Assembly: GCA_001874305.1 (NCBI GenBank)
Contig: MPCU01000003.1
Coordinates: 372,001 to 436,000 of the forward strand
Reading direction: 5' to 3'
Length of the DNA stretch: 64,000 nucleotides
From: Bacteriovorax sp. MedPE-SWde
GTDB taxonomy: Bacteria > Bdellovibrionota > Bacteriovoracia > Bacteriovoracales > Bacteriovoracaceae
The notes beneath the pieces are model-generated. The model did not search any database. It was given only the letters and a program-made list of their open reading frames with translations, and had not been told where the DNA came from. Below are positions 31,511 through 44,127 of the stretch, in pieces (positions within the stretch are counted from its first letter, which is position 1; each line of letters starts with the position of its first letter). Made by a program: the position numbers and the translations under genes.

Positions 31511-32149
31511 GTGAGTTTCATAGAGGTGTATCATATTTCTAAAAGTTTCAATGAAAGTTTTAGACTTGATGACATCTCTCTTTCCCTTGAAAAAGGGGAA
31601 CACGTCTTCTTTGTAGGTGCTAATGGTGCAGGAAAGACTACGCTATTAAAAATGTTAGCAGGAAAGCTACTTCCAGACTCCGGTGAAATTCGAATTGATG
31701 GCTATCCCATTACTCGCTATGAGAAAGACATTCGCTCACTTATTGCTTGGATTCCAACTCGAGATAATGGATTCTTTCCTCGCTTAACAGGACTTGAAAA
31801 TATTCACTTCTTTCAAAAATTCTTAAAAATGGATTGTATTGAAGAGCGTATCCAAAGGTGGAGCAAGCTTAGTAGCTTCAAGAATATGTTAGAGCGTAAT
31901 TACTCTGACTGTTCATCTGGAATGAGACAATTACTACAGATCTTCTGTCTTACTCTTCATTCTCCAAAGCTAATAGTAATGGATGAACCTTTTAGATCTC
32001 TAGATCCTGATACAAGACTGGCGCTAAAAGAGATATTACTTGAAGACTTTCCAGAAGCTAATTTTATAATGAGTACACATAATTTAGAGGACACTGATTT
32101 TCTTTCCGGAAGAGTTGTGAAAATTGCTGGAGGTAAGTTTGTTAATTAG
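31511..32149 (+). CDS. ABC transporter ATP-binding protein
   Basis: The 212-residue ATPase has Walker A GANGAGKTT (36-44), signature CSSGMRQLL, Walker B LIVMDEPFRSLDP and the switch His in MSTHNLED. The short length and the separately encoded ABC-2 permease downstream suggest a drug/peptide/lipid-type exporter. The GTG start is two bases after the antiporter stop. It converges on the radical SAM cluster, making export of that cluster's product a possibility but not shown. Confidence 0.88.
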   Translation: MSFIEVYHISKSFNESFRLDDISLSLEKGEHVFFVGANGAGKTTLLKMLAGKLLPDSGEIRIDGYPITRYEKDIRSLIAWIPTRDNGFFPRLTGLENIHFFQKFLKMDCIEERIQRWSKLSSFKNMLERNYSDCSSGMRQLLQIFCLTLHSPKLIVMDEPFRSLDPDTRLALKEILLEDFPEANFIMSTHNLEDTDFLSGRVVKIAGGKFVN

Positions 32150-32954
32150 ACTGATATTCGCAATTTTTAAAATGAATATTAAGAGCGTTCTATTTTATCG
32201 CTTTGCGTACCTCTTTGAAATAATCTCTATTCTTATATCTTTAGTAATTTATTACTTCACGTCTAAGGCGTTTAACTCTTCTGTTGCAAGTGGACTAACA
32301 AGCTATGGAGTAGATTACTTCTCATATATCGTACTTGGTGAAGTTCTATTAGCAATTCCACTATACTTTCTTGAGGGTCCATATAGAAATTTAAAAACAG
32401 CGGTAATTGAAGGGACATGGGAGACGATGATCTCTCTTCCTAAATCACCATTCAAGTCCCTTGTGTATATTTCAACTTTTGATTTACCACGTGTTGTTCT
32501 GAGATGCTTTACAACTCTAGCTCTAGCGGTTGTTTTCTTTGGGTTACGAATATCTCCTATGGAGTTTATACAAATTTCATTTTTTCAGATACTTGCAATC
32601 CCGTTCTGTTTTGGCTTTGGACTTATTGCATGTTCTCTCTTTATTCTCTCAGGTCGGGGACAGGCAGTTATAGCATATCTGACAACTCTTACTGCCTTCT
32701 TGTCTGGTGGATTCTTTCCTATATCAGTCTTTCCAGAGTGGTTAAGAGAGGCATCTTACTTGATAAGTCCATTTACATTCTTACTTGAGAATTCTCGATT
32801 AATTATTGCAGGTCGAATGGAGCTAAATCAATTCATATATGCTTGCGCTACAATAATTGTATGGAGTGCGGTCTTCTTTGCAGGCCATCTAGCAGTAGGC
32901 AAGGCAATGTACTTTAGAAAGAAGAATGGTGGGCAAATAATTATTTCGAACTAA
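32139..32954 (+). CDS. ABC-2 type permease
   Basis: The protein of about 271 residues has six membrane segments and an ABC-2 signature with GxFFPISVFPEWLREASYLISPFTFLLENSR-like topology (short motif GGFFPISVFPEW). I chose TTG 32139, preceded by GGAGGT at five bases and overlapping the ATPase stop by 11 bases; other in-frame starts are TTG 32124 and ATG 32172. Its final 14 bases overlap the convergent radical SAM gene. Confidence 0.82.
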   Translation: MLIRLIFAIFKMNIKSVLFYRFAYLFEIISILISLVIYYFTSKAFNSSVASGLTSYGVDYFSYIVLGEVLLAIPLYFLEGPYRNLKTAVIEGTWETMISLPKSPFKSLVYISTFDLPRVVLRCFTTLALAVVFFGLRISPMEFIQISFFQILAIPFCFGFGLIACSLFILSGRGQAVIAYLTTLTAFLSGGFFPISVFPEWLREASYLISPFTFLLENSRLIIAGRMELNQFIYACATIIVWSAVFFAGHLAVGKAMYFRKKNGGQIIISN

Positions 32955-33993
32955 GGTCGTGCTTGATCTTTGCTTGTTTGTAAATAGTTGGATCACAACC
33001 AGTATAGTCCCCAGTGTTGATATAAACACTTCCGCTACTTCTATTGCAAGATTCTATATAATCACATGTCTGACATGATTTAAAATCTGTTTCTTTTATA
33101 TTTCTGATCTTATTTAATTCCTTAGAGTTCTTCCATATATCTACAAGCGAAGTATCATTTATGTTTCCAGACTTTATAGGAGCACCTATACATGGATAGA
33201 CATCCCCTGAAGAACTAATTCCACATACTGATCTCGCACATGAGCATTGAACAGCTTTCTCTGTATTCTTGCCATTGAAGTATTCTTTATATGGACCTTT
33301 TAATAGATCAATGAATTGTTCAGAAGTAATTTCATTTTCTCTTGCACCATTTGAATCATCATATCGATCTGTTACTTCCAGTGAGAGTTGAAAATTGAGA
33401 GATCTTTGATTACAGATCTCGATCATCTCGCTAAGTTGATGAACATTTCTTCGATGGATTATAATACTTATATGAAGATCAACTCCAGATTCCTTTAATC
33501 TATCGATGCCAGCTAAACTAGTACTAAGAGAGTTTTTGATACCTGTGAAATCTTGATAGACTTCTTCTGTAGCACCATAGAGGCTTATATCAACACCACC
33601 TAACCCTGCATTAACTAATTTTTCACATTTCTCTTTATCTATTAGAGCACCATTTGATTTAAGACGTGGCTCCATATGAAGAGAGCGAACATATGCAATA
33701 TAGTCTTCAAGATGTGGACTAGCTGTGGCCTCACCACCTGTGAAGTTAATATAGAGAGCTCCTAGTTCTCCAAGCCCATCAATAACTTGATAGACTTGCT
33801 CTTTAGTCATCTGGTTATCTTTAGTTGCTTTAGGCATTGGACCTGTACGATCATAATTATAGCAGTGTGAGCACTTGAAGTTACATGTTTGTGTTATTTC
33901 AATAGTTGAAACTAATGGAATGCAATTCTTAAAAGCGTATTGAAGAGACTTTTCAAGTAGATGAGTTTTAAAGAAAGGATCTTTCTTACTCAT
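32941..33993 (-). CDS. Radical SAM/SPASM peptide-modifying enzyme
   Basis: The radical SAM Cys cluster is C37-x3-C41-x2-C44 (CNFKCSHC), followed by the GGEAT motif and a TIM-barrel. Residues about 245-330 form a SPASM-type domain with many cysteines (QCSCARSVCG, VYPCIGAP, CQTCDYIESCNR) for auxiliary 4Fe-4S clusters. This architecture is characteristic of RiPP maturases. The adjacent upstream gene (overlap of 8 bases) encodes a PqqD-like protein, the usual leader-recognition partner. The likely substrate is the 61-residue peptide encoded about 2.5 kb away on the same strand. Confidence 0.9.
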   Translation of the reverse strand: MSKKDPFFKTHLLEKSLQYAFKNCIPLVSTIEITQTCNFKCSHCYNYDRTGPMPKATKDNQMTKEQVYQVIDGLGELGALYINFTGGEATASPHLEDYIAYVRSLHMEPRLKSNGALIDKEKCEKLVNAGLGGVDISLYGATEEVYQDFTGIKNSLSTSLAGIDRLKESGVDLHISIIIHRRNVHQLSEMIEICNQRSLNFQLSLEVTDRYDDSNGARENEITSEQFIDLLKGPYKEYFNGKNTEKAVQCSCARSVCGISSSGDVYPCIGAPIKSGNINDTSLVDIWKNSKELNKIRNIKETDFKSCQTCDYIESCNRSSGSVYINTGDYTGCDPTIYKQAKIKHDLSSK

Positions 33994-34267
33994 TAGTGCC
34001 CTCTGTTGTATCTAAAAGAGATTTTGTTCTTAATTCATCAAGAAAGTACATTATATCTTTGTCAGCTGTGCCTTCATCTATATCGAAGTCAGATACCAGA
34101 TTATTCTTAATATCACTTAAGCTATTTTCTCCAGTGCATAACTCCCAGAGATAAGCTCCAACTTCATTAAGGTGATGAACTTCCTGGTTAACTCTAGAGT
34201 CTAGGATTACTGTATGCTCGCCTAGTTTTCTCCAGGATAAATGTTGTGCTCTTTTTGGATTTGTCAT
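33986..34267 (-). CDS. PqqD-like peptide-recognition protein (RRE)
   Basis: The 93-residue protein shows the PqqD winged-helix pattern: VILDSRVNQEVHHLNEVGAYLW (beta strands then helix, with LN-x-x-G-x-x-LW) and a C-terminal DIMYFLDELRTKSLL helix. PqqD domains bind the leader of RiPP precursors and hand it to a radical SAM enzyme, here encoded by the next gene with an 8-base overlap. It is divergent from the nucleotidyltransferase gene. Confidence 0.85.
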   Translation of the reverse strand: MTNPKRAQHLSWRKLGEHTVILDSRVNQEVHHLNEVGAYLWELCTGENSLSDIKNNLVSDFDIDEGTADKDIMYFLDELRTKSLLDTTEGTNE

Positions 34268-34309
34268 AAGAAAATTTTAGGTAATTTCCAACATGAAGGG
34301 AAGGGAATA

Positions 34310-35230
34310 ATGTATAATTATGACATGACCATTCCTAAGTTATTAAAAAAAGATAATATTCTCAGTATTGCAAATGAGCATTTAATTGAAGGGTTATTAT
34401 TTCGTGAATATGATCTCTTTGAAGCTTCTTCAAAAAGTGGGGAACGTTCATGGAAGCAACAATGGTACCACAATACTGTACTCCAAGATTCTCTAGTCGA
34501 ACTCTCTAGAGAACTGAGTTCTAATGTCGTTATATTAAAAGGTATGGCCTTACTTGACTCTATTTATGAGGATACGGGAAAGAGATTCATGTCAGATATT
34601 GATCTGCTTGTTCCTCAAGATGAAGTGTCAAAGCTACATGATCTCCTCGATAGAGAAGGTTATAAGAATATCACTGGGCCACAGTGGAAAGGTAATGACT
34701 TTAAGGGGGAATGGACAAAAACTACCAATGGAATTGAAGTTAATATAGAAATACACACAAGGTTGTTTTATCACGCAAGGGATCTCGATTGGGAACTTGA
34801 GAACTCTAGTATTACTCCATTAAAAATCTTGGCTCCAAATGATATGATCCTTCATCTTATTGGTCACTGTGCCTTTCAACATAATTTCTTAAAACTCTAT
34901 TGGCTAATGGATATTTATCTCTATCAGCTTAATCAAGAAATAGATTGGAAACTGGTACTAGATAGAGCTAAGAAGTTAAAAGTCTATAATTCTGTTATAT
35001 CAACAATCTGGGTATTAAATAAGTACTTTGAATCTGATATTTATGTAGAAGAAGTACCTAGTAGAAAAGTTCAAAATCTTTTAACTGAAGAATTTCTCTT
35101 AAACCCTAATCAGCAGGGTAGTGACTACTATAGAATCAAACATTATATGAAAGACAATATTATTGAGGCCCTTAAGTATGACTTTGCTTGGTTCTTTGAC
35201 AGAATAAAAAAGAAGTTTGCACGACAATAA
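34310..35230 (+). CDS. Nucleotidyltransferase-fold protein (NTP_transf_5-like)
   Basis: The protein has the segment VVILKGMALL then KRFMSDIDLLV: the Gly and the D-x-D pair (D96, D98) of the DNA-polymerase-beta-type nucleotidyltransferase fold, as in the PF14907 family often found with HPr-kinase-like/PqqD peptide clusters. In those clusters it may add a nucleotide or polyphosphate to the peptide or a partner; here that is inference. ATG 34310 is chosen (GAAGGGAAGGGA upstream); an in-frame start further upstream lacks a ribosome site. The last 59 bases overlap the S26-like gene on the other strand. Confidence 0.8.
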   Translation: MYNYDMTIPKLLKKDNILSIANEHLIEGLLFREYDLFEASSKSGERSWKQQWYHNTVLQDSLVELSRELSSNVVILKGMALLDSIYEDTGKRFMSDIDLLVPQDEVSKLHDLLDREGYKNITGPQWKGNDFKGEWTKTTNGIEVNIEIHTRLFYHARDLDWELENSSITPLKILAPNDMILHLIGHCAFQHNFLKLYWLMDIYLYQLNQEIDWKLVLDRAKKLKVYNSVISTIWVLNKYFESDIYVEEVPSRKVQNLLTEEFLLNPNQQGSDYYRIKHYMKDNIIEALKYDFAWFFDRIKKKFARQ

Positions 35231-35585
35231 CTAATAGAGCAAAGTGCAAGTATCTAAACGGAGAGTTCTTTGTCATTCTCTTAGAGAGAAAAGAGATAAG
35301 TCTTTTAAATGGTTGTCCTTTCTTACCCCAGAAGTACCTTTGATTACCCAGTGCCGTTGCAATAACAATAGCGCCAGTGTCATCATTAGTATAAACGCGA
35401 TCGCCCTTCGTAATTTGAGAGTCAATAAGCCGATGAGTAACAAGCTCTCCACTTAAATGGTCTTTAAATAAAACTATATTTCCTTGGACCTTAGAATCCA
35501 TTTCATCTGTAAATATTATCTCATCGCCATCTTTAAAAGTTGGCCACATGCTAATACCGGAAATTTTAATTCTTTGAAGGGCCAT
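35172..35585 (-). CDS. S26-like signal peptidase (Ser/His type)
   Basis: The 137-residue protein has GISMWPTFKDGDEI with nucleophile Ser12, GNIVLFKDHLSGELVTHRLI with His51, and VYTNDD..., the usual signal peptidase/SipW-Sec11 layout in which His replaces the catalytic Lys of LepB. A hydrophobic helix lies near the C-terminus (about 112-128), where SipW-type enzymes have their anchor. It overlaps the HPr-kinase-like gene by 20 bases, so it is part of the peptide operon and could cleave the precursor or mature peptide. It lacks the N-terminal helices of LepB. Confidence 0.72.
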   Translation of the reverse strand: MALQRIKISGISMWPTFKDGDEIIFTDEMDSKVQGNIVLFKDHLSGELVTHRLIDSQITKGDRVYTNDDTGAIVIATALGNQRYFWGKKGQPFKRLISFLSKRMTKNSPFRYLHFALLVIVVQTSFLFCQRTKQSHT

Positions 35586-36459
35586 CGATTAAGTCCCAGA
35601 AGTCTGTCGTTTTAGTAAATGATAGTTTATACATTGGATAATTCTGTGCCATTGAATAAGTCTTATCCATAATCTCTTGTATGATTTCTTCTTCTAAATT
35701 ATCCCAAAATAAGTTTGTTATACTTGCCATGAGCTTTGTATGTGCAGAAGAAGAGCTTATCTTTGAAAGTGAGTTATTATCTGATTGTTCTAGCCAGTAA
35801 AAGCCTTCGACATCGAAAGTATCGCAATAATCTACACCACTAAAGAATATTCCTCCAATAGCACCGGCCATTGCTTGGTTATCTTTAAAGTTAAAGAGAT
35901 TCATATCATCACCAAGGATTTTTCTTTCCTCTGCAAGTCCTGCAACAGTACTTTTTCCCGCACCTGAGTGACCAAGAAAGAACCTTGCTTTGCCATCTCT
36001 GCCAACGATACATGATGAGTGAATTACGAAATGATCTGTAGATAATAATTTCTTGGGTAGGAACCATCTGAGAAAGTTATATAGTCCATCGCCAAGTTCA
36101 TCATCACTAATAAGGAGGACTTTATTTGATTCCAAATCCTTTGCGATAAAATCTCTTTGAATCGCAAGCGCTGTTCCTTCTTCTAAGAAACAGTCCTGTG
36201 AGGATTCATCGCACCAGGCCTCTGGTGATATACCTAACTCCTGTGGAGTATAGAGATAAATATCATAAGGATTTTCCGTTTGAGTTAACCAGCTCTGTGG
36301 AAGAGTCTTTCTTATACTATCTGCTAATCTTTGTGTCGGACAGTGAAAGTGTAGGGGGATTCCATGATAGTTAACTTCTATAGAGAAACCTCTGTCATGA
36401 GACTGAGTTTCAATTTTATTAATGGTTTGAATTTTTAGATTATAGAGATCGGTATTCAT
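35566..36459 (-). CDS. HPr-kinase-related ATPase
   Basis: The 297-residue protein has a P-loop GHSGAGKST (163-171), then ILGDDMNLF and GGIFFSG, the core of HprK-like kinases, with an N-terminal beta-rich region. It lacks the HPr-specific signature of true HprK/P. Similar kinases occur in peptide clusters; in the paeninodin lasso system a homologue phosphorylates the C-terminal Ser of the precursor. The putative precursor here, encoded directly upstream (2-base gap), ends in Ser. Regulation of another target is equally possible. Confidence 0.82.
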   Translation of the reverse strand: MNTDLYNLKIQTINKIETQSHDRGFSIEVNYHGIPLHFHCPTQRLADSIRKTLPQSWLTQTENPYDIYLYTPQELGISPEAWCDESSQDCFLEEGTALAIQRDFIAKDLESNKVLLISDDELGDGLYNFLRWFLPKKLLSTDHFVIHSSCIVGRDGKARFFLGHSGAGKSTVAGLAEERKILGDDMNLFNFKDNQAMAGAIGGIFFSGVDYCDTFDVEGFYWLEQSDNNSLSKISSSSAHTKLMASITNLFWDNLEEEIIQEIMDKTYSMAQNYPMYKLSFTKTTDFWDLIDGPSKN

Positions 36460-36461
36460 TA

Positions 36462-36647
36462 CTATGAATTAAGTCTTGAGGCCCTACATGGAGTTGGTGG
36501 AGCAGTTGATGCTTTTCTTCCACCATTAAATGTCCCGTTACATACAGCACCATAAGTATTGAGCTTTTCTGATTCAATTTCCGGCTTAGAATAAGGCTTC
36601 TTAACCTTTGTCTCTTCACTTAATGTCTTATTCGTTTCTTCTACCAT
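36462..36647 (-). CDS. Candidate modified-peptide precursor, 61 aa
   Basis: A strong AGGAGA ribosome site lies before the ATG (36647), which sits inside the last codons of the gingipain-like gene (20-base overlap). The peptide has an acidic/basic leader with KKPYSKPEI (Y19-x-x-P22-x-I24, the YxxPx[L/I] motif read by RRE proteins), then TYGAVCNGTFNGGRKAS and PPTPCRASRLNS. It has two Cys (C36, C54), a Gly-Gly at 42-43 and a C-terminal Ser (S61). Gene context (HPr-kinase-like, S26 peptidase, PqqD, radical SAM) makes it a RiPP precursor candidate. Core boundaries and modification are unknown. Confidence 0.75.
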   Translation of the reverse strand: MVEETNKTLSEETKVKKPYSKPEIESEKLNTYGAVCNGTFNGGRKASTAPPTPCRASRLNS

Positions 36648-39600
36648 TTAGAATCTCCTGCCACTTATTATACCTCATGAATGCGAGGAGGACAAAGCAA
36701 ATGAAATATTCAAGTATTCCTGTATACCAAGGAAGTCCACCAGTATGAGCTGCGTTAACTGAGCAACCACCACCACTACTAGGCGTCTCTTCAACTACTG
36801 GAGGAGCATCAGGAAACATTGAGGAAGGAATTTGTAGAGATGGATCTCCTATAATAGTGTAACTCTTAACAATATCTTGTTCATAGGCACCGGTTCCAGT
36901 TGCCGCCTTAGCTCTTATTATAAGGTCTCCAATTCTTTGACCTTTATAATATGTCTGGATATCTCCCTCAAGTGTTGAGAAGAAATTCTGTGCTAATGTA
37001 TTTTGGGCAGAAGGAGTTGTTTGGGTTGTTGACCCCATAAATACAACCGCTCCACCAGTTGGGTTAAATATAAGTTTCTCAGAAAGAGATTCTTCGTATC
37101 TTGCTGAGTAGAAGTAAAGTGCTGTTTCACAATTCCAAGTCATAACTATTGGAAGTTTTGTATTAGTAAGAGCACTTGCATCAGTAGTTTGTAAAATATT
37201 AGTACCGAAAGTATTTGAAGCACCATGACCCATCATTGATACAATTAGTGGTGAGTTCGTGAAGCTATTAATGACTTCTGTTTTTGTCGCTGCATCTGAG
37301 CCAAGCGCCGTTCTATCAATCTGTGTCGACACAAAGCTTGATGCAGTTGAAGCAAGCTCAGTACTTCTTTGGGAGAACTTTTCATAATAACCAAGGTCAG
37401 TATCTGAAACAAAGGATATTGTTTTAAGTTCATCTGGTTGAGACGTTCCATTCTCATATGCTATTAGTTTCGTAACATAGTTTCGAATATCTTCAGGATC
37501 ATTAGAAGGAAGACGTCCAACTGAGATTCTTGGAAGAGTTGAACCTTCTTGAGTTACAAAGTAGTTATCTGTTCCAAATTCCATAAAACGACCTGTCATA
37601 TGAGGTGTTGGAATTGTTTCTTCGTCAAGAACAACTCTATCAGCAGCAGATTCACTATCAATATTATGATCAAGAGGATCATTCGTTCCATCCCCAAGAA
37701 CTAGAAGGTATTCTGGTTTATTAGTCCATGAGTCTATTGCGAAATTCATAAAGTCTCTAATTGCCGAAGTACTAACTTGTCCATTACTAAACTCACCATA
37801 GATCTGTCTCGGTGTAACTAGCATTACTTCTAGCCCTTGAGATGTTCTCTGTGTGATAAGCTCATCAACAGCAGGTAATAGATTCTTATGTCCTATAATA
37901 ATTAAATCTGCACGATTATCAGTATTTTTTAAACTCTGTTCATTTCCTGGATTTAAGGACAATCCATTTGGTGAAAGGAATGATCCCGTTTCAATAATCT
38001 GAATATTTTTTAAGCTTTCATCATTTTCATTGTCATTAACAAAGAATGAGGCTGTGTAGCTTGCTCCTGCATCAGGTGTTGTAATACTTGCATTACTTAT
38101 AATAGAAGCATCCAGAGGTGTTGTCGTATCATAAATATTTAAGTTTAAAGATCCAAAGTTTGTAATAGTATGTACTGCTGAACTTTCTTCTAATGTAATA
38201 ACAGATTTTCCGAGGCTCCCATCACCATTACCAACATAAGCTATCTCTGTCTTATCTATATATACCTGCTCAAATGTTCCAGCGGCCGCATATGTTCCAA
38301 GTAGTTTGAAATCTATTGTATTATTACCTGCAATGAAGCGATCCGCAGGTATCTCAAATGTTAGAATTTGTCTTTCATCTGCAAAAGTATGATCCATCTC
38401 TTCAGAACCACTCATTTCAACAGACATGTGGTGAAGAGTCACAACTCCATTATAGTTTAATCCCTTAACGTGAAGTTTAATAATTACGTTAGTATCAGAT
38501 GTGTTATCTATTTCTGGAGTATTTACAGTTAGTGAATAAGTATCAAATCCACCTATATTAAATAGTCTTGAACCAAAGAAGTGATCTTCTGTGTCTTCAA
38601 GTGTTTCTCCATCAACATATAGAGTATTACTTTCATATGTTTTGGTGAAGATTGAAAGACTATCGGATGCAGCTTGCTCTCCTGAAGGGTCACCGTTAAG
38701 TGATGCCATTCTCTTGGCAGTATTAGAATCCTCACTGATTTCGACAGTACTAAGTACAACACTATTTTTTAAGTCTTCAAGAGACGCTGAAAATGGAGCA
38801 TAGAATCTAATATAGTCACCAGTGCTAAAGAACCCTGATGGAGAATTTATCTCAAGAGGTATTTCAGAACCATTATAATAGAGACGAAGGTCGTTTATAT
38901 CAACACCATCAAATGGACCTTCAACCGAAGAGTTATTAAGATCGTTATAATCTAATTGGTACATTCCGGCCTGAGAGTAATCAACCTTCAGTGTGTTCGC
39001 CACTATAAATGGATTTATAATATCACCGGCCGATGGAGGAGTGATTGACCAATCATTTCCATCAAGTCCTATATCAAGCTCTATAGATGTCGCTCGTGTT
39101 ACATCTTGAGAGACAGGGTTATACTTTAGAGGATTAACTTTTATTCTTAAGTAAGTCTTACTTCCACTTTTTTGAAGTGTTGTATCTACATCAAAGTACT
39201 GACTCGGTGTGTCTGCGCTTGTTGCATAGTGTGTCGCGTTTGGACTGTATGAAGCTTGAAGATCTCCATTACCATCCATTGTCCACGTTGGAGCTGGAGA
39301 AATATTATGGCCTGCAAGTGTTGATTCACCTGAGACTGTTGAGTTAATCAGACTTGCAGTTGTTGCATAGTCATAAACTTCAATAAGAAGAATTCTTTCT
39401 GGTATCTCTGGAAGACCGGCCGTCGATTCTTTAGAATAACCGGTAACACTAACATCTTCATAAGTACCATTCCATGCACTTGCAGTGAACACTGGTGCAT
39501 CTGGAGTAATAACTAGTCTTATATTAGAACTGGTTTGATTGTGTATAACAACACCATTTCCAAGATCTCTGTAAGAAGGATTTTGAATAGGGAATGGGTT

Positions 39601-42600
39601 TGCACCATTACCATCATCTCCATCATTTGGATTAGTTCCACTATTATCATCTGCACCATCAGCAGGTGGTGCTCCAAGAGTTGCGTCTGGTGTTGCGTGA
39701 ACTGGACCATGGAGAGTTCTCTTTCCAGCGATCTCGATATCTTCAATATAATAGAAGTACGTGTTGTCATTATCAACGTCGCTATCAATGAATCTATATG
39801 TTCCTCTAGCTTGACCGGCATTATTAAAGTTTCGAATGATTGTGCTATTTATTTGTTGGTATTCATCTCCTGATTCATCAGCTCGATAAATATTAAAACC
39901 TAGATGATTTGATTCTGAGTTTGTCTCCCAACGAATATCTATAGCTGCATTATATGGAATAGCTTCAAGAGATCTTAGTGCTACAGCAGATGCTGCACTT
40001 GCCATATTTACTGTACAACCACTTGCTGAAACTCTCGTCGTAACATCAAAGGTAACTTGTGACTCGAACCAGTCACCAGACCACCCAGTGAAGTCTATAG
40101 TTTGGCCACTACATCCTGTTGAGCTAACAAGTGTGTAAGGGTCTGTTGGTGCAGGAGTTCCTCCATTGGCCGGATTAAACGAGTTAAATGCACCCCAACT
40201 CCATGCAATATTAGATGCTGTTAATGGTAGTGAACCTGTAGAATTTAGCTGAATTGCTTTTACTGAAGCATATGAAGTTGGAAGATTTGTAAGTTGACCA
40301 CCATCAAGTGCTTGAAGGATTGTTGAGCCGCTTATATTAAGTCCATTTGCATCGAGATAATCTAGTTGGAAACCTTTAAGGTTAACTGTTCCTGATATCG
40401 CAGAGAATGTCCAAGAGCCAGTTCCTCCTTGTGGACGGATAATGGCCTTTGTTGCAACATTTTGTGGAAAAGTATCATTGATTCCAAGCGCTGAGATTAC
40501 ACCACCAGATACTTGGAGAGTTTGCGCATTTCCAATTTCTAAAATACCACCAGTACTGACACGAAATTCTCCGCCTGTAATATTCACCCCATTTGGTAAA
40601 ACTAATTTTCGAGAAGAGGCAATATTTAGGCGATAGTTTGTTCCTGTAATGGTCACAGAATTTATAATTAATTCACTATCTGTTACTTCAATTATACCGC
40701 CACCTGTTTTGTTGATATCAAGATTTGCAAGTGTTGAAGTCGAAGTTAAGTTGTGACTTGTATTTGTACCACCATCTGCGATTGATAGAGTACCTGTTTG
40801 AGAAAATGTACCAGTGTTCGTAAAATTCCCGTAGACTTCAAGAATCGCGCCACCACTAAGGGTGAGCGTACCATTTGTTATATCGACATTTTGACAATTT
40901 GCGGTACCTGTAGAGATTATTGGGTTATTTCCGGCACTTGGTATTTGACAAGTTTTAGTTGTACTCGGTACACCCGCTGACCAGTTTGAAGCATCAGTCC
41001 AGTCTGTAGAAGTTGTTCCCGTCCATATAGTTGTTGATGGTGCATAGATAGTTGAAGCGGTACCAAGCTCCATTGGAGGTGCTGCTGATGCCGAAAAATT
41101 ATAAGTTTCAGAGTTTGTAACATCTGAAGCAGATGCTATTTTTACACCAACAGTATTCCCATTTGTTGCGTTACTAGAAATATCATACTCTACATAAACA
41201 CAATTCTTTGGAGGAGTTGCAACATCGGCCAGTATTGTAAAACTACTTGGAGTAATTGAGAAACTTGCCTTTGCTGGAAGACCTGAGAATGTTGTCGTTC
41301 CAAGAAGTGTTCCAGATGCACCATCACAATTACTATCTGAGTAGAGTCTTACTGCCGTAATGTCTGTAGCAGGGGCAGTTCCTGTTAAAGAGAGTGCAAT
41401 TTTAGTGACGTCAGTATCATTATAAGAAGCTCCTGCGAGGGATTGTGTGAAACCAAAACGACCCATGTTATAAGTCCCGCCAACTGTCACTGTTCCTGGC
41501 CCTGTAGCTTCTGTAGAGAGATCAATTGTATTTGTCTGTCCTGACCAAGCTATTAAGTATGTTGGGTCGTTATCAAGTGTTGGCCCACCAAGGTTTCCAG
41601 AATAACTTGAAATTGTGAGAGTTCCTGCGGCAGCACCTGTTGTGTCAATATTTGTCGTCCCGGCAGCACCTGATCCATTATCATCAAAGGTCATATTTGA
41701 AAGTGTGTTACCAGGAATTTGCGTTTTTAAAGCTAGTTGAGTTGATCCTGAATTCACAGGATAGATATATGATCCATCTTGAAGGAAATTCGTCGCATCA
41801 ATTGTCGCACCAGCTTCTATTGAAACACCATTAGTTCCAAGATGATCAAATGTATAGTAGCGAGCCTCAATAGTTCCATTAACTATGACGTTATAAGAAG
41901 CGGCTCCAGAGTTACTTCCAACTGTTGCATATGTTCCAGATGTTCCTACTACTTTTAGTTTACCACCTGTATTTATTGTTAGTGTTTGTGTGTCTGCTAA
42001 AGATAGTGTTCCACCTGCTCCAATTGAGACCTCACAACCTGTCTGTACAGTAATACTTCCAAGTACAGTTAGTGTTGTTCCATTTGGAATATAGAGTACA
42101 CCATCTGTACAAGTTAGATTTCCATTAACAGTGGAAGAAGCACCAAGTGTTACAATATTACTATTGGCAATACCTGAATTATTGATAATAAGGTTTCCAG
42201 GAAATGCTGTCGCTAAAGTAAGGTTTTGGTTCATAGAACCATTCATTACAATATTTCCAGATGTCGAATTATTGAATATAAAACTTGGTTGAACTTCTAG
42301 AGTTCCATAAACATTGAATGAATTTGATGTCGAATTCCAATCAATAATACCGTTTGAAAGTAAGTTTGCATTAGCACATTCAACTGGAGTTGTATTAACT
42401 TGTGCGAGATTTGTCGCAACCCCAATATGGCAATCTCTTGCAGAAGAAGGTAGACCGCCATCCCAGTTTGATCCATCATTCCAGGCCGTACTTGTCTGTC
42501 CACTCCATGTTGAATAATTTGGATTTCTAATCGTACTCATATTAGACTCTATTGGCGTACCTGATGTTGCAGATAGCGTATAGCCTGTAGAGTTAACTAC

Positions 42601-44127
42601 ATCTGTCGAAGAGATGATACCGAACTTAACAGTTTTTTGGTCAACGGGATTTGCGCTGGCCTTCGCTCTTATTATAAGACAGGCTTGATCGGTAGGTGAG
42701 TTCGTATTTAAGTCACCCGGACTTAGTGAGATTGTCGCTTTTGCTGGTGAGCCAGAAAAAGATAAGTCTCCAATTAGCGTGTCATTAGCAGCATTAAAAT
42801 TACAATTTGAGTTAGTATCAAGATAAGCTCTGACATACTCTAAATCTGATATAGATGCAGATCCTGTCATTGTTACCTGAACTTCTGTTATGTCTGTTGC
42901 TGTGTCTACCTGACTTAAAGAGAAAGCAAATTCAGCAAATGTAAATTCATCTCCAGGGTCAAAGAATTGACCTGGCTCTCCAGTTTCTGAGTCATTTAAT
43001 ATTGCTAGTTCTGTGGCCGCTGGCACAGACCATGCTATTTGATTATTTGGATCATTTTCTTGGGCCGAAGTTACATCCCCTGAAAAATTAGTAAAGGTAA
43101 TAAGTCCTGCACTATAAGCTGACGCATCAACACTTGTGACTGTTCCTCTGTCATCATCATTGAACATACCAATAGTATCTAGAGTTCCTGGCATGACAGC
43201 TGTTGCAGATAGAGTTATTGCTGCTCCTGAACCTGCAATCCCTCGAAACTCACCATTATCCATTTGAGTTACAGTTCCTGTAATATTTGTTCCAGCAGAA
43301 TCTGTCCTTTGAATAAGAAAGTTATTTGCAGTGAGAGTACCATTCATATTGAACATGAAAGATCTATTTGCAGCTTCTGATACAACTCTCGCTGGGTTTC
43401 CAGAAGCACCTGCTAATTGAAGAATACCACCTGGATTTACTGTTAATGATTTTGTCCTGTAGAGTCTAAGTTCTCCACCTGCCTCAATCTTTACAACTCC
43501 TTCAATTGTTAAGTCACTTCTTGTATAGAGTGATGCTCCACTTTTGATTACTAGAGTGTGACCCGCAGGGATTACATGATTTAGAGATGTATTATGTAAC
43601 CAAAGATCACCTTCAACATATGTTGTTCCTGTACTGTTGATTATAAGATCTGATCTAACTCGAAAGTTATTTTTTAAAGTTACACTGGTATCATTTGATA
43701 AAAAGAGATCACGAATATCATCAACAGCTTCAAATGTTTGCGGTGATGTTCCGGCCATATCAATTTTAAAATTATTACTTGTAAAACTTAGAGTGTTTGC
43801 ATTTGGAGCGCTAAAGTAATCTCCAACAACAGTGAGCCTTCTATTTTGTGTTCCTTCAAGAACACCGGATTGAACATCGACGCAACCAACTGTTGATGTT
43901 GTTGTCATTCTTGCATTAGTGGCAGTGTTGATAATTACGACATCTTCTGCAGATGTATTAGGGTAGTCAGCTGGTGACCAGTTCGCGTTTGAGTTCCACG
44001 CATTAGAACCATTTCCGGCCCAAGTTCTTGTTGAGCCTCCGCAAGCAGCATATAAATTTGTGCTGACTAGAATTAATACTAGTCCGACAAAGAATTTATA
44101 ATATGATTTGTATCGCTCGCTCATCAT
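36628..44127 (-). CDS. Giant surface protein with gingipain-type (C25) protease domain
   Basis: The 2499-residue protein has a signal peptide (cleavage near LYAACGG). Residues 30-1380 are long repeats: W-G-x-x-x-x-x-W-x-x-x-x-NW units at about 35, 541 and 1035, each followed by Thr/Ser/Asn-rich beta-helix-like sequence, and two copies of a roughly 130-residue domain (the DITEVQ and DITAVR regions). A fibronectin III-like segment is near 1385-1480. The C25 domain (about 2070-2430) has the catalytic H2301 (MMGHGAS) and C2333 (MTWNCETA), spaced as in gingipains. The tail (after GGGCS, C2455) is a hydrophobic helix plus NGRRNE, resembling MYXO/GlyGly-CTERM sorting tails. It overlaps the precursor start. 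Confidence 0.85.
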   Translation of the reverse strand: MMSERYKSYYKFFVGLVLILVSTNLYAACGGSTRTWAGNGSNAWNSNANWSPADYPNTSAEDVVIINTATNARMTTTSTVGCVDVQSGVLEGTQNRRLTVVGDYFSAPNANTLSFTSNNFKIDMAGTSPQTFEAVDDIRDLFLSNDTSVTLKNNFRVRSDLIINSTGTTYVEGDLWLHNTSLNHVIPAGHTLVIKSGASLYTRSDLTIEGVVKIEAGGELRLYRTKSLTVNPGGILQLAGASGNPARVVSEAANRSFMFNMNGTLTANNFLIQRTDSAGTNITGTVTQMDNGEFRGIAGSGAAITLSATAVMPGTLDTIGMFNDDDRGTVTSVDASAYSAGLITFTNFSGDVTSAQENDPNNQIAWSVPAATELAILNDSETGEPGQFFDPGDEFTFAEFAFSLSQVDTATDITEVQVTMTGSASISDLEYVRAYLDTNSNCNFNAANDTLIGDLSFSGSPAKATISLSPGDLNTNSPTDQACLIIRAKASANPVDQKTVKFGIISSTDVVNSTGYTLSATSGTPIESNMSTIRNPNYSTWSGQTSTAWNDGSNWDGGLPSSARDCHIGVATNLAQVNTTPVECANANLLSNGIIDWNSTSNSFNVYGTLEVQPSFIFNNSTSGNIVMNGSMNQNLTLATAFPGNLIINNSGIANSNIVTLGASSTVNGNLTCTDGVLYIPNGTTLTVLGSITVQTGCEVSIGAGGTLSLADTQTLTINTGGKLKVVGTSGTYATVGSNSGAASYNVIVNGTIEARYYTFDHLGTNGVSIEAGATIDATNFLQDGSYIYPVNSGSTQLALKTQIPGNTLSNMTFDDNGSGAAGTTNIDTTGAAAGTLTISSYSGNLGGPTLDNDPTYLIAWSGQTNTIDLSTEATGPGTVTVGGTYNMGRFGFTQSLAGASYNDTDVTKIALSLTGTAPATDITAVRLYSDSNCDGASGTLLGTTTFSGLPAKASFSITPSSFTILADVATPPKNCVYVEYDISSNATNGNTVGVKIASASDVTNSETYNFSASAAPPMELGTASTIYAPSTTIWTGTTSTDWTDASNWSAGVPSTTKTCQIPSAGNNPIISTGTANCQNVDITNGTLTLSGGAILEVYGNFTNTGTFSQTGTLSIADGGTNTSHNLTSTSTLANLDINKTGGGIIEVTDSELIINSVTITGTNYRLNIASSRKLVLPNGVNITGGEFRVSTGGILEIGNAQTLQVSGGVISALGINDTFPQNVATKAIIRPQGGTGSWTFSAISGTVNLKGFQLDYLDANGLNISGSTILQALDGGQLTNLPTSYASVKAIQLNSTGSLPLTASNIAWSWGAFNSFNPANGGTPAPTDPYTLVSSTGCSGQTIDFTGWSGDWFESQVTFDVTTRVSASGCTVNMASAASAVALRSLEAIPYNAAIDIRWETNSESNHLGFNIYRADESGDEYQQINSTIIRNFNNAGQARGTYRFIDSDVDNDNTYFYYIEDIEIAGKRTLHGPVHATPDATLGAPPADGADDNSGTNPNDGDDGNGANPFPIQNPSYRDLGNGVVIHNQTSSNIRLVITPDAPVFTASAWNGTYEDVSVTGYSKESTAGLPEIPERILLIEVYDYATTASLINSTVSGESTLAGHNISPAPTWTMDGNGDLQASYSPNATHYATSADTPSQYFDVDTTLQKSGSKTYLRIKVNPLKYNPVSQDVTRATSIELDIGLDGNDWSITPPSAGDIINPFIVANTLKVDYSQAGMYQLDYNDLNNSSVEGPFDGVDINDLRLYYNGSEIPLEINSPSGFFSTGDYIRFYAPFSASLEDLKNSVVLSTVEISEDSNTAKRMASLNGDPSGEQAASDSLSIFTKTYESNTLYVDGETLEDTEDHFFGSRLFNIGGFDTYSLTVNTPEIDNTSDTNVIIKLHVKGLNYNGVVTLHHMSVEMSGSEEMDHTFADERQILTFEIPADRFIAGNNTIDFKLLGTYAAAGTFEQVYIDKTEIAYVGNGDGSLGKSVITLEESSAVHTITNFGSLNLNIYDTTTPLDASIISNASITTPDAGASYTASFFVNDNENDESLKNIQIIETGSFLSPNGLSLNPGNEQSLKNTDNRADLIIIGHKNLLPAVDELITQRTSQGLEVMLVTPRQIYGEFSNGQVSTSAIRDFMNFAIDSWTNKPEYLLVLGDGTNDPLDHNIDSESAADRVVLDEETIPTPHMTGRFMEFGTDNYFVTQEGSTLPRISVGRLPSNDPEDIRNYVTKLIAYENGTSQPDELKTISFVSDTDLGYYEKFSQRSTELASTASSFVSTQIDRTALGSDAATKTEVINSFTNSPLIVSMMGHGASNTFGTNILQTTDASALTNTKLPIVMTWNCETALYFYSARYEESLSEKLIFNPTGGAVVFMGSTTQTTPSAQNTLAQNFFSTLEGDIQTYYKGQRIGDLIIRAKAATGTGAYEQDIVKSYTIIGDPSLQIPSSMFPDAPPVVEETPSSGGGCSVNAAHTGGLPWYTGILEYFICFVLLAFMRYNKWQEILNGRRNE

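Follow-up and report, generated by a model that had tools for sequence, protein, structure and literature searches.

Organisation of the locus

The window analysed here is a 64,000-nt stretch of the Bacteriovorax sp. MedPE-SWde genome (contig MPCU01000003.1), and all coordinates are positions within it unless another locus is named. Between 32941 and 36647 it carries six genes, for a small precursor peptide, an HprK-like kinase, an S26-type peptidase, a PqqD-like protein, a radical S-adenosylmethionine (SAM) enzyme with a SPASM domain and a nucleotidyltransferase-fold protein of the NTP_transf_5 family. All six had been named in a first-pass annotation of this DNA, and each was confirmed at its position, on both strands. 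Their sequences make it likely that the locus represents a family of ribosomally synthesized and post-translationally modified peptides (RiPPs) of the Bdellovibrionota, in which radical SAM chemistry is joined with phospho/nucleotidyl or glycosyl tailoring of the peptide C-terminus.

On the minus strand the genes follow in the order C25 peptidase, precursor, kinase, S26 peptidase, PqqD and radical SAM/SPASM enzyme. The NTP_transf_5 gene lies on the plus strand between the S26 and PqqD genes, in opposite orientation to both. The first gene of the series, encoding a 2499-residue C25 peptidase, was missing from the gene list of the annotation. At its 3' end this gene shares 20 bases with the start of the precursor gene, and the kinase and S26 genes overlap by the same length, which suggests that the string from C25 to S26 forms a single transcript. 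A ribosome-binding-like sequence, AGGAGA, can be read upstream of the precursor. Matches above the Pfam cut-off were obtained for Radical_SAM (PF04055, E 1.4e-24), SPASM (PF13186, 3.6e-11), PqqD (PF05402, 2.9e-14), NTP_transf_5 (PF14907, 2.7e-33) and Peptidase_C25 (PF01364, 4.3e-62), whereas the S26/S24 match (0.0028) remained below it. In Pfam the kinase matches PEPCK_ATP, not HprK, just above the cut-off (26.9 vs 26.5 bits).

The precursor peptide

The precursor gene (36462-36647, minus strand) encodes 61 residues, MVEETNKTLSEETKVKKPYSKPEIESEKLNTYGAVCNGTFNGGRKASTAPPTPCRASRLNS, without a match to any Pfam or NCBIfam model. The same small open reading frame (ORF) occurs repeatedly beside kinase homologues within the order. 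A profile built from 20 such ORFs found next to kinase homologues (alignment A1) matches 34 genomes, from six families, in a phylum sample of 369, mostly with E values of 1e-15 to 1e-28. The core reads C-N-G-x3-G-G-R-K-x5-P-x2-C-x4-L-x-S, and a degenerate pattern of it was observed once, against an expectation of 0 matches in shuffled windows. Moreover, third codon positions are the most variable in the 24 alignable cores, where codons with a single difference comprise 2303 synonymous and 588 non-synonymous changes, a roughly fourfold excess. Given the profile matches, the rarity of the core pattern and this synonymous excess, the 61-residue ORF is a genuine precursor and not a chance ORF.

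The family consensus, KxYxKPxIx(S/T)ExL...GAxCNGxxxGGRKxxxxxPxxCxxx(R/K)LxS, falls into a leader and a conserved core. Tyr, Pro, both Cys, one Gly and Lys are invariant in 35/35 precursors. The invariant Tyr and Pro belong to the leader motif YSKPEI (YxxPxI; 36576-36593, minus strand), the predicted binding site of the PqqD-like RiPP recognition element (RRE), while the two Cys, the Gly and the Lys lie in the predicted core peptide, CNGTFNGGRKASTAPPTPCRASRLNS (36465-36542, minus strand). The leader Tyr is separated from the first core Cys (Cys36) by 17 residues in 31 of the 35 precursors, and lasso numbering would make Cys36 residue 1 of the core, the cleavage site being placed from lasso spacing. 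Of the 34 complete precursors, 32 end in Ser and 2 in Thr, whereas the penultimate residue varies (N, L, K, T, S, I, Q or M); elsewhere in the cores Ser and Thr account for 19% of residues. The locus therefore has the elements of a RiPP system: a precursor gene specifying a leader and a conserved core, beside genes for modifying enzymes. A core conserved over six families makes a fixed partner of the product more probable than a role as a diversifying toxin.

Two divergent precursors (L050, 11754-11933, and L053, 267-494) have a Gly-rich insertion ahead of the first Cys, and Thr as their last residue. No C25 peptidase was detected in their genomes, one of which (G049) belongs to the same genus as the window.

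The kinase and the C-terminal serine

The kinase (297 residues; 35566-36459, minus strand) contains a P-loop, GHSGAGKST, at 35947-35973. His147, Gly163, Ser165, Gly168, Lys169, Thr171 and Asp185 are invariant in 29 members (alignment A2), so that the His, GxSGxGK and Asp catalytic motif of lasso precursor kinases is present. HprK-related models match the protein weakly. Its AlphaFold model (predicted local distance difference test, pLDDT, 93.9) aligns to PEPCK with Z 14.7 over 258 residues; the fold it predicts belongs to the PEPCK/HprK superfamily.

PadeK, ThcoK, SyanK and PsmK phosphorylate the C-terminal Ser of lasso precursors (reviewed in PMC9266682). In the light of these characterised kinases, the invariant last residue suggests that the kinase of the locus phosphorylates the C-terminal Ser/Thr, that is Ser61 in the window (36465-36467, minus strand). 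A RiPP uniting radical SAM chemistry with phosphorylation had been proposed in the annotation, and the C-terminal Ser/Thr, the lasso-like leader spacing and the kinase motif all support it. Against the choice of site stands BsfK, which depends on His148, Gly163, Lys169, Ser170, Asp186 and Asp187, is helped by an RRE and phosphorylates Ser3, not the last residue (PMC10368454); similarity to such kinases therefore leaves the site unfixed when taken by itself.

Leader recognition, tailoring and leader removal

Among NCBIfam models, the PqqD-like protein (33986-34267, minus strand), a stand-alone RRE, comes closest to the lasso PqqD chaperone. The leader motif YxxPx(I/L/V) occurs at the same spacing as in lasso leaders, for example Tyr(-17), Pro(-14) and Leu(-12) in the BsfK system (PMC10368454). 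In four related loci (L034, L035, L036 and L037) a second PqqD-like gene, not present in the window, directly follows the kinase gene; the second copy of L034 scores best to the same lasso chaperone model.

The longest ORF of the NTP_transf_5 protein starts at 34241 and overlaps the PqqD start. Conservation in the family begins at Met29 (34325), an invariant column of its alignment, so that the long start is probably wrong and the true start is probably the ATG at 34310 or 34325, with the gene ending at 35230 (plus strand). A start of conservation at Met29 leaves a short divergent promoter region. Invariant residues comprise K100, G101, R115, D119 and D121 (KG...RxxxDxD), together with E170 and H172. 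The structural model (pLDDT 88) has ANT(2'')-Ia, MenT1 and LnuA as its nearest structures; by sequence, no credible solved relative was found for this protein and none for the S26 peptidase. PsmN, an annotated nucleotidyltransferase, is required for hexose addition to the C-terminal phosphate (reviewed in PMC9266682).

The S26-type peptidase (35172-35585, minus strand) matches TIGR02228 with E 3e-8, under the cut-off. Across 28 members, Ser12, His51 and a KGD motif are retained without or almost without exception, with S12, H51, R52, G61 and D62 invariant. The Ser-His pair matches the pattern of SipW/Sec11-type signal peptidases. Many members, like that of the window, end in a hydrophobic C-terminal helix. 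Apparent loss of S26 in two loci is explained by gene fusion: kinase and S26 form one ORF in genome G113 (L039, 9192-10448), and radical SAM enzyme and S26 one ORF in G127 (L041, 9960-11435). These fusions argue for S26 as a component of the pathway, with its catalytic portion in the cytoplasm, where the kinase and radical SAM enzyme are. It is accordingly predicted from its sequence to be a cytoplasm-facing leader peptidase.

The radical SAM enzyme and the possible core modification

The radical SAM/SPASM enzyme (350 residues; 32941-33993, minus strand) has the cluster cysteines Cys37-41-44. Two subtypes differ in their auxiliary cysteines: 250, 252, 268, 307, 310, 316 and 333 in the group that includes the window, and 250, 257, 268, 316 and 319 in the other. 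The loci L040, L042, L050 and L087-L095 differ from the window in auxiliary-cysteine subtype within one precursor family. Sactipeptides and ranthipeptides have a radical SAM/SPASM enzyme that forms Cys thioethers. The locus has a SPASM enzyme and, in the core, two Cys that never vary, but against sactisynthase models the enzyme scores low (SkfB 66/300, StsB 62/625 bits). Cys36, Lys45 and Cys54, being invariant, are the natural candidates for a crosslink, and a thioether or other side-chain crosslink may be the likeliest product, this being the weakest step of the model.

The best NCBIfam scores of the enzyme are to the AhbD, MftC, PqqE and GeoRSP models. Together with the PqqD partner and a core as strongly conserved as in cofactor precursors, they are compatible with a peptide-derived cofactor of the PQQ or mycofactocin type, in which the modified precursor would be degraded to a redox cofactor while the kinase and NTP_transf_5 protein built a nucleotide-like handle. 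Such a cofactor is distinctly unlikely: conservation extends over some 26 residues, with GGRK, the two Cys and the C-terminal residue among them, which is more than a small excised unit would need, and the ABC (ATP-binding cassette) exporter and surface protease point outwards. Membership of the PQQ and mycofactocin systems themselves was rejected, with scores far below their cut-offs.

Distribution and co-occurrence of the gene set

Up to about 20 kb was fetched around each relative in the phylum sample. In the neighbourhood comparison suggested by the annotation, the set recurs: precursor, kinase, PqqD, radical SAM, S26 and NTP_transf_5 genes are all found in 26 loci besides the window, with order and strand rearranged. 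Incomplete loci mostly reflect contig ends, fragmented genomes or fusions; the exception is G034, where S26 and NTP_transf_5 genes are absent from the fetched stretch.

Loci keeping the enzymes while lacking the precursor had been named as a finding that would speak against a RiPP. Within the order, kinase and precursor occur together in 22 genomes, the kinase without the precursor in 2, the precursor without the kinase in 0 and neither in 105, so that 22 of the 24 genomes with the kinase have the precursor. In one of the two kinase-only genomes (G042), the kinase gene sits right at the end of a contig of 4 kb. The second, G063, has a different cluster of weak similarity (L054); it encodes two radical SAM proteins as well as an ABC exporter, shows a weak kinase-like match and may represent another system for peptide modification.

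A scan of 84,980 species with a DNA version of the core pattern gave 18 matches, 17 of them titled as Bdellovibrionota-type metagenome-assembled genomes (MAGs). No carrier titled as another phylum was found among these species, with a strict pattern that would miss divergent cores, and no match was obtained in a plasmid scan. The named carriers are MAGs of Bacteriovoracaceae, Halobacteriovoraceae, Bdellovibrionales and similar groups.

Relationship to lasso peptides and other known systems

The greatest likeness is to the systems of phosphorylated and glycosylated lasso peptides. An HprK-like kinase with the His, GxSGxGK and Asp motif is shared with paeninodin PadeK, ThcoK, SyanK, pseudomycoidin PsmK/PsmN and BsfK/BsfN; a nucleotidyltransferase, a stand-alone PqqD-type RRE, a C-terminal Ser and an ABC exporter are further common features. 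The leader motif lies at equal distance from the core, although position -2 is Ala here and not the Thr of lasso precursors. In contrast, a radical SAM/SPASM enzyme and a Ser-His S26 peptidase are found where lasso systems have their protease and ring acceptor.

Leader motif and spacing, RRE, kinase and nucleotidyltransferase could thus also be read as the remains of a degenerate or unusual lasso cluster. This is extremely improbable. In agreement with the annotation, which had listed no transglutaminase-like protease, no match to the B2-type leader protease domain Transglut_core3 (PF13471) was found in the genome, which is 99.7% complete, while the control matched in 2 genomes. Likewise, no Asp or Glu occurs at core positions 7-9 in any of 34 precursors numbered from Cys36, and under that numbering a lasso ring is excluded. 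No asparagine-synthetase-like cyclase was found among the locus genes by Pfam; the search was confined to these genes, since ordinary AsnB would match genome-wide.

Other systems combining related proteins were considered and rejected. SynChlorMet (ScmC/D/E/F) also has an HprK-like protein, a PqqD-like protein and radical SAM/SPASM enzymes. It differs in that a single radical SAM enzyme is present here and that S26, NTP_transf_5 and this precursor are not known from that cassette; scores are far under the cut-offs (ScmC 25/125, ScmD 24/100, ScmE 89/400, ScmF 66/400 bits). GeoRSP shares the radical SAM/SPASM and PqqD pair (110/400 and 31/100 bits, far below cut-off), while the kinase, NTP_transf_5 and S26 proteins fall outside its named models. 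The HPr-rel-A system (TIGR04352/TIGR04353) has an HprK-related kinase and a PqqD-like protein, with 16/200 bits for the kinase and 22/35 bits for a PqqD2 relative; it is not known to contain a radical SAM enzyme. A role in anti-phage defence was also rejected: PADLOC gave weak viperin matches for the radical SAM enzyme, such as any protein of that superfamily would be expected to give, and none for the other five proteins.

The C25 peptidase

The giant C25 (gingipain/PorU-like) peptidase (36628-44127, minus strand) has a signal-peptide-like start, about 1700 residues of repeats, a PorU-like region (about 36826-38994) and a tail formed by a GGGCS motif, a transmembrane segment and basic residues (within 36631-36780). 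The His2301/Cys2333 dyad is invariant in 32/32 C25 proteins, so that domain and His-Cys dyad are both present. With PorU, the sortase of the type IX secretion system, the protein has in common the C25 domain, the region preceding it and the intact dyad. The N-terminal repeats and the private tail set it apart, and the match to the PorU equivalog model NF033707 (E 1.7e-50 over 723 residues; 172 vs 420 bits) is below the cut-off. No match to the translocon protein SprA was found in the genome, in a search in which no control genome matched either.

C25 peptidases of about 2000-3550 residues with the same tail, including an invariant Cys, are found in the window and in relatives (L032-L052, L118-L138). 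The tail resembles a MYXO-CTERM-type anchor, as compared with models by NCBIfam scan only. That it might serve as a general C-terminal sorting tag was considered and rejected: it is found on C25 proteins only, 1-3 per genome, and no other protein with such a tail was detected in 14 genomes, apart from one match of E 0.017.

In the phylum sample, C25 and the locus occur together in 28 genomes, the locus alone in 7, C25 alone in 3 and neither in 331; by genus the corresponding figures are 19, 3, 2 and 158. The C25 gene often lies on another contig than the locus, and in several genomes it is unlinked yet present. In G031, the S26, NTP_transf_5 and ABC permease genes are beside C25, on a contig apart from that of the precursor. 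This co-occurrence, even without linkage, suggests that C25 is probably a functional partner of the locus. Some genomes speak against the partnership, namely G073 and G217, which have the locus without a detected C25, and three C25-positive genomes without a detected precursor, G230 and G256 among them.

The nature of such a partnership may be envisaged in two ways, each of them possible but doubtful. The modified peptide could be a ligand, inhibitor or covalent part of C25 or of its surface, the locus then maturing a single surface machine. Co-occurrence with unlinked C25 and the conserved core favour this, as does the PorU-like domain: PorU of Porphyromonas is a transpeptidase joining cargo to anionic lipopolysaccharide (PMC8545088, PMC4560394). 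The genomes with one partner but not the other, just cited, count against it. Alternatively, the product might be a secreted antibacterial or predation factor, activated outside the cell by C25 or prevented by it from harming the producer, in the manner of NisP/CylA-type maturation proteases. A linked ABC exporter, a secreted-looking and catalytically intact C25 with an anchor-like tail, and a patchy occurrence in genera such as g4, where among the genomes listed only G016 has locus and C25, are consistent with such a factor. However, the core is far more conserved than in typical bacteriocins and holds the conserved GGRK within it, no separate immunity gene was identified, and a protease of 2000-3500 residues seems oversized for leader removal.

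A far more specific version, which is very improbable, would make the peptide a ribosomally encoded surface anchor, with the phospho-Ser joined through NTP_transf_5 to a nucleotide-sugar or glycan and the N-terminal Cys acting as nucleophile or acceptor for a C25 transpeptidase. If true, C25 and the peptide would form a sortase system with a RiPP as its anchor, surface proteins being tied to the peptide by C25.

Proposed maturation pathway

The favoured interpretation, a RiPP with both radical SAM and lasso-type C-terminal modifications, can be set out as a pathway. The precursor would be made from the overlapping string of C25, precursor, kinase and S26 genes, assuming co-transcription. By analogy with lasso systems, the PqqD-type RRE would bind the leader motif and present the peptide. 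The kinase would phosphorylate the C-terminal Ser/Thr, and the NTP_transf_5 protein might then add a nucleotide or sugar to the phosphate, as PsmN adds hexose. The radical SAM/SPASM enzyme may modify the core, perhaps through the crosslink considered above. The tail-anchored S26 peptidase would cleave off the leader on the cytoplasmic side of the membrane, at a site probably adjacent to Cys36. The ABC exporter, whose linkage is observed, could secrete the product, which may finally work with, or be finished by, the co-occurring C25 peptidase.

Several observations weigh against this scheme. The S26, kinase and radical SAM proteins all score far under the cut-offs of the equivalog models, and their assignment depends on motifs and context. 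Both radical SAM subtypes are paired with the same precursor family, so that the chemistry may differ between them or miss the conserved residues. Finally, the genomes counted share ancestry and are not independent, so that the Fisher P value for the association of kinase and precursor (8e-23) is only a guide.

No description of this combination was found in a literature search that reached few subscription papers. The RiPP class itself is known; the combination of lasso-type phosphorylation and tailoring with radical SAM/SPASM core chemistry in one pathway is probably not previously reported. If correct, it would join two RiPP toolkits described apart in the literature searched, and would give PsmN-type nucleotidyltransferases and lasso precursor kinases a second, non-lasso context for study. 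It would also tie a RiPP with a fixed core to a giant PorU-like peptidase in bacteria of a predatory lineage, whose peptide natural products are hardly known.

Neighbouring genes

The GC content of the locus (about 0.35-0.38) is similar to that of the remaining window and is uninformative on recent horizontal transfer. An ABC exporter on the plus strand (31511-32954) runs head-on into the radical SAM gene and overlaps its stop codon. It consists of an ATPase (31511-32149; PF00005, E 2e-28) and a DrrB-like ABC-2 type permease (32124-32954; PF01061, just under the cut-off). The annotation had suspected that this convergent exporter is linked to the locus, and ABC genes are indeed found near 22 of 35 related loci.

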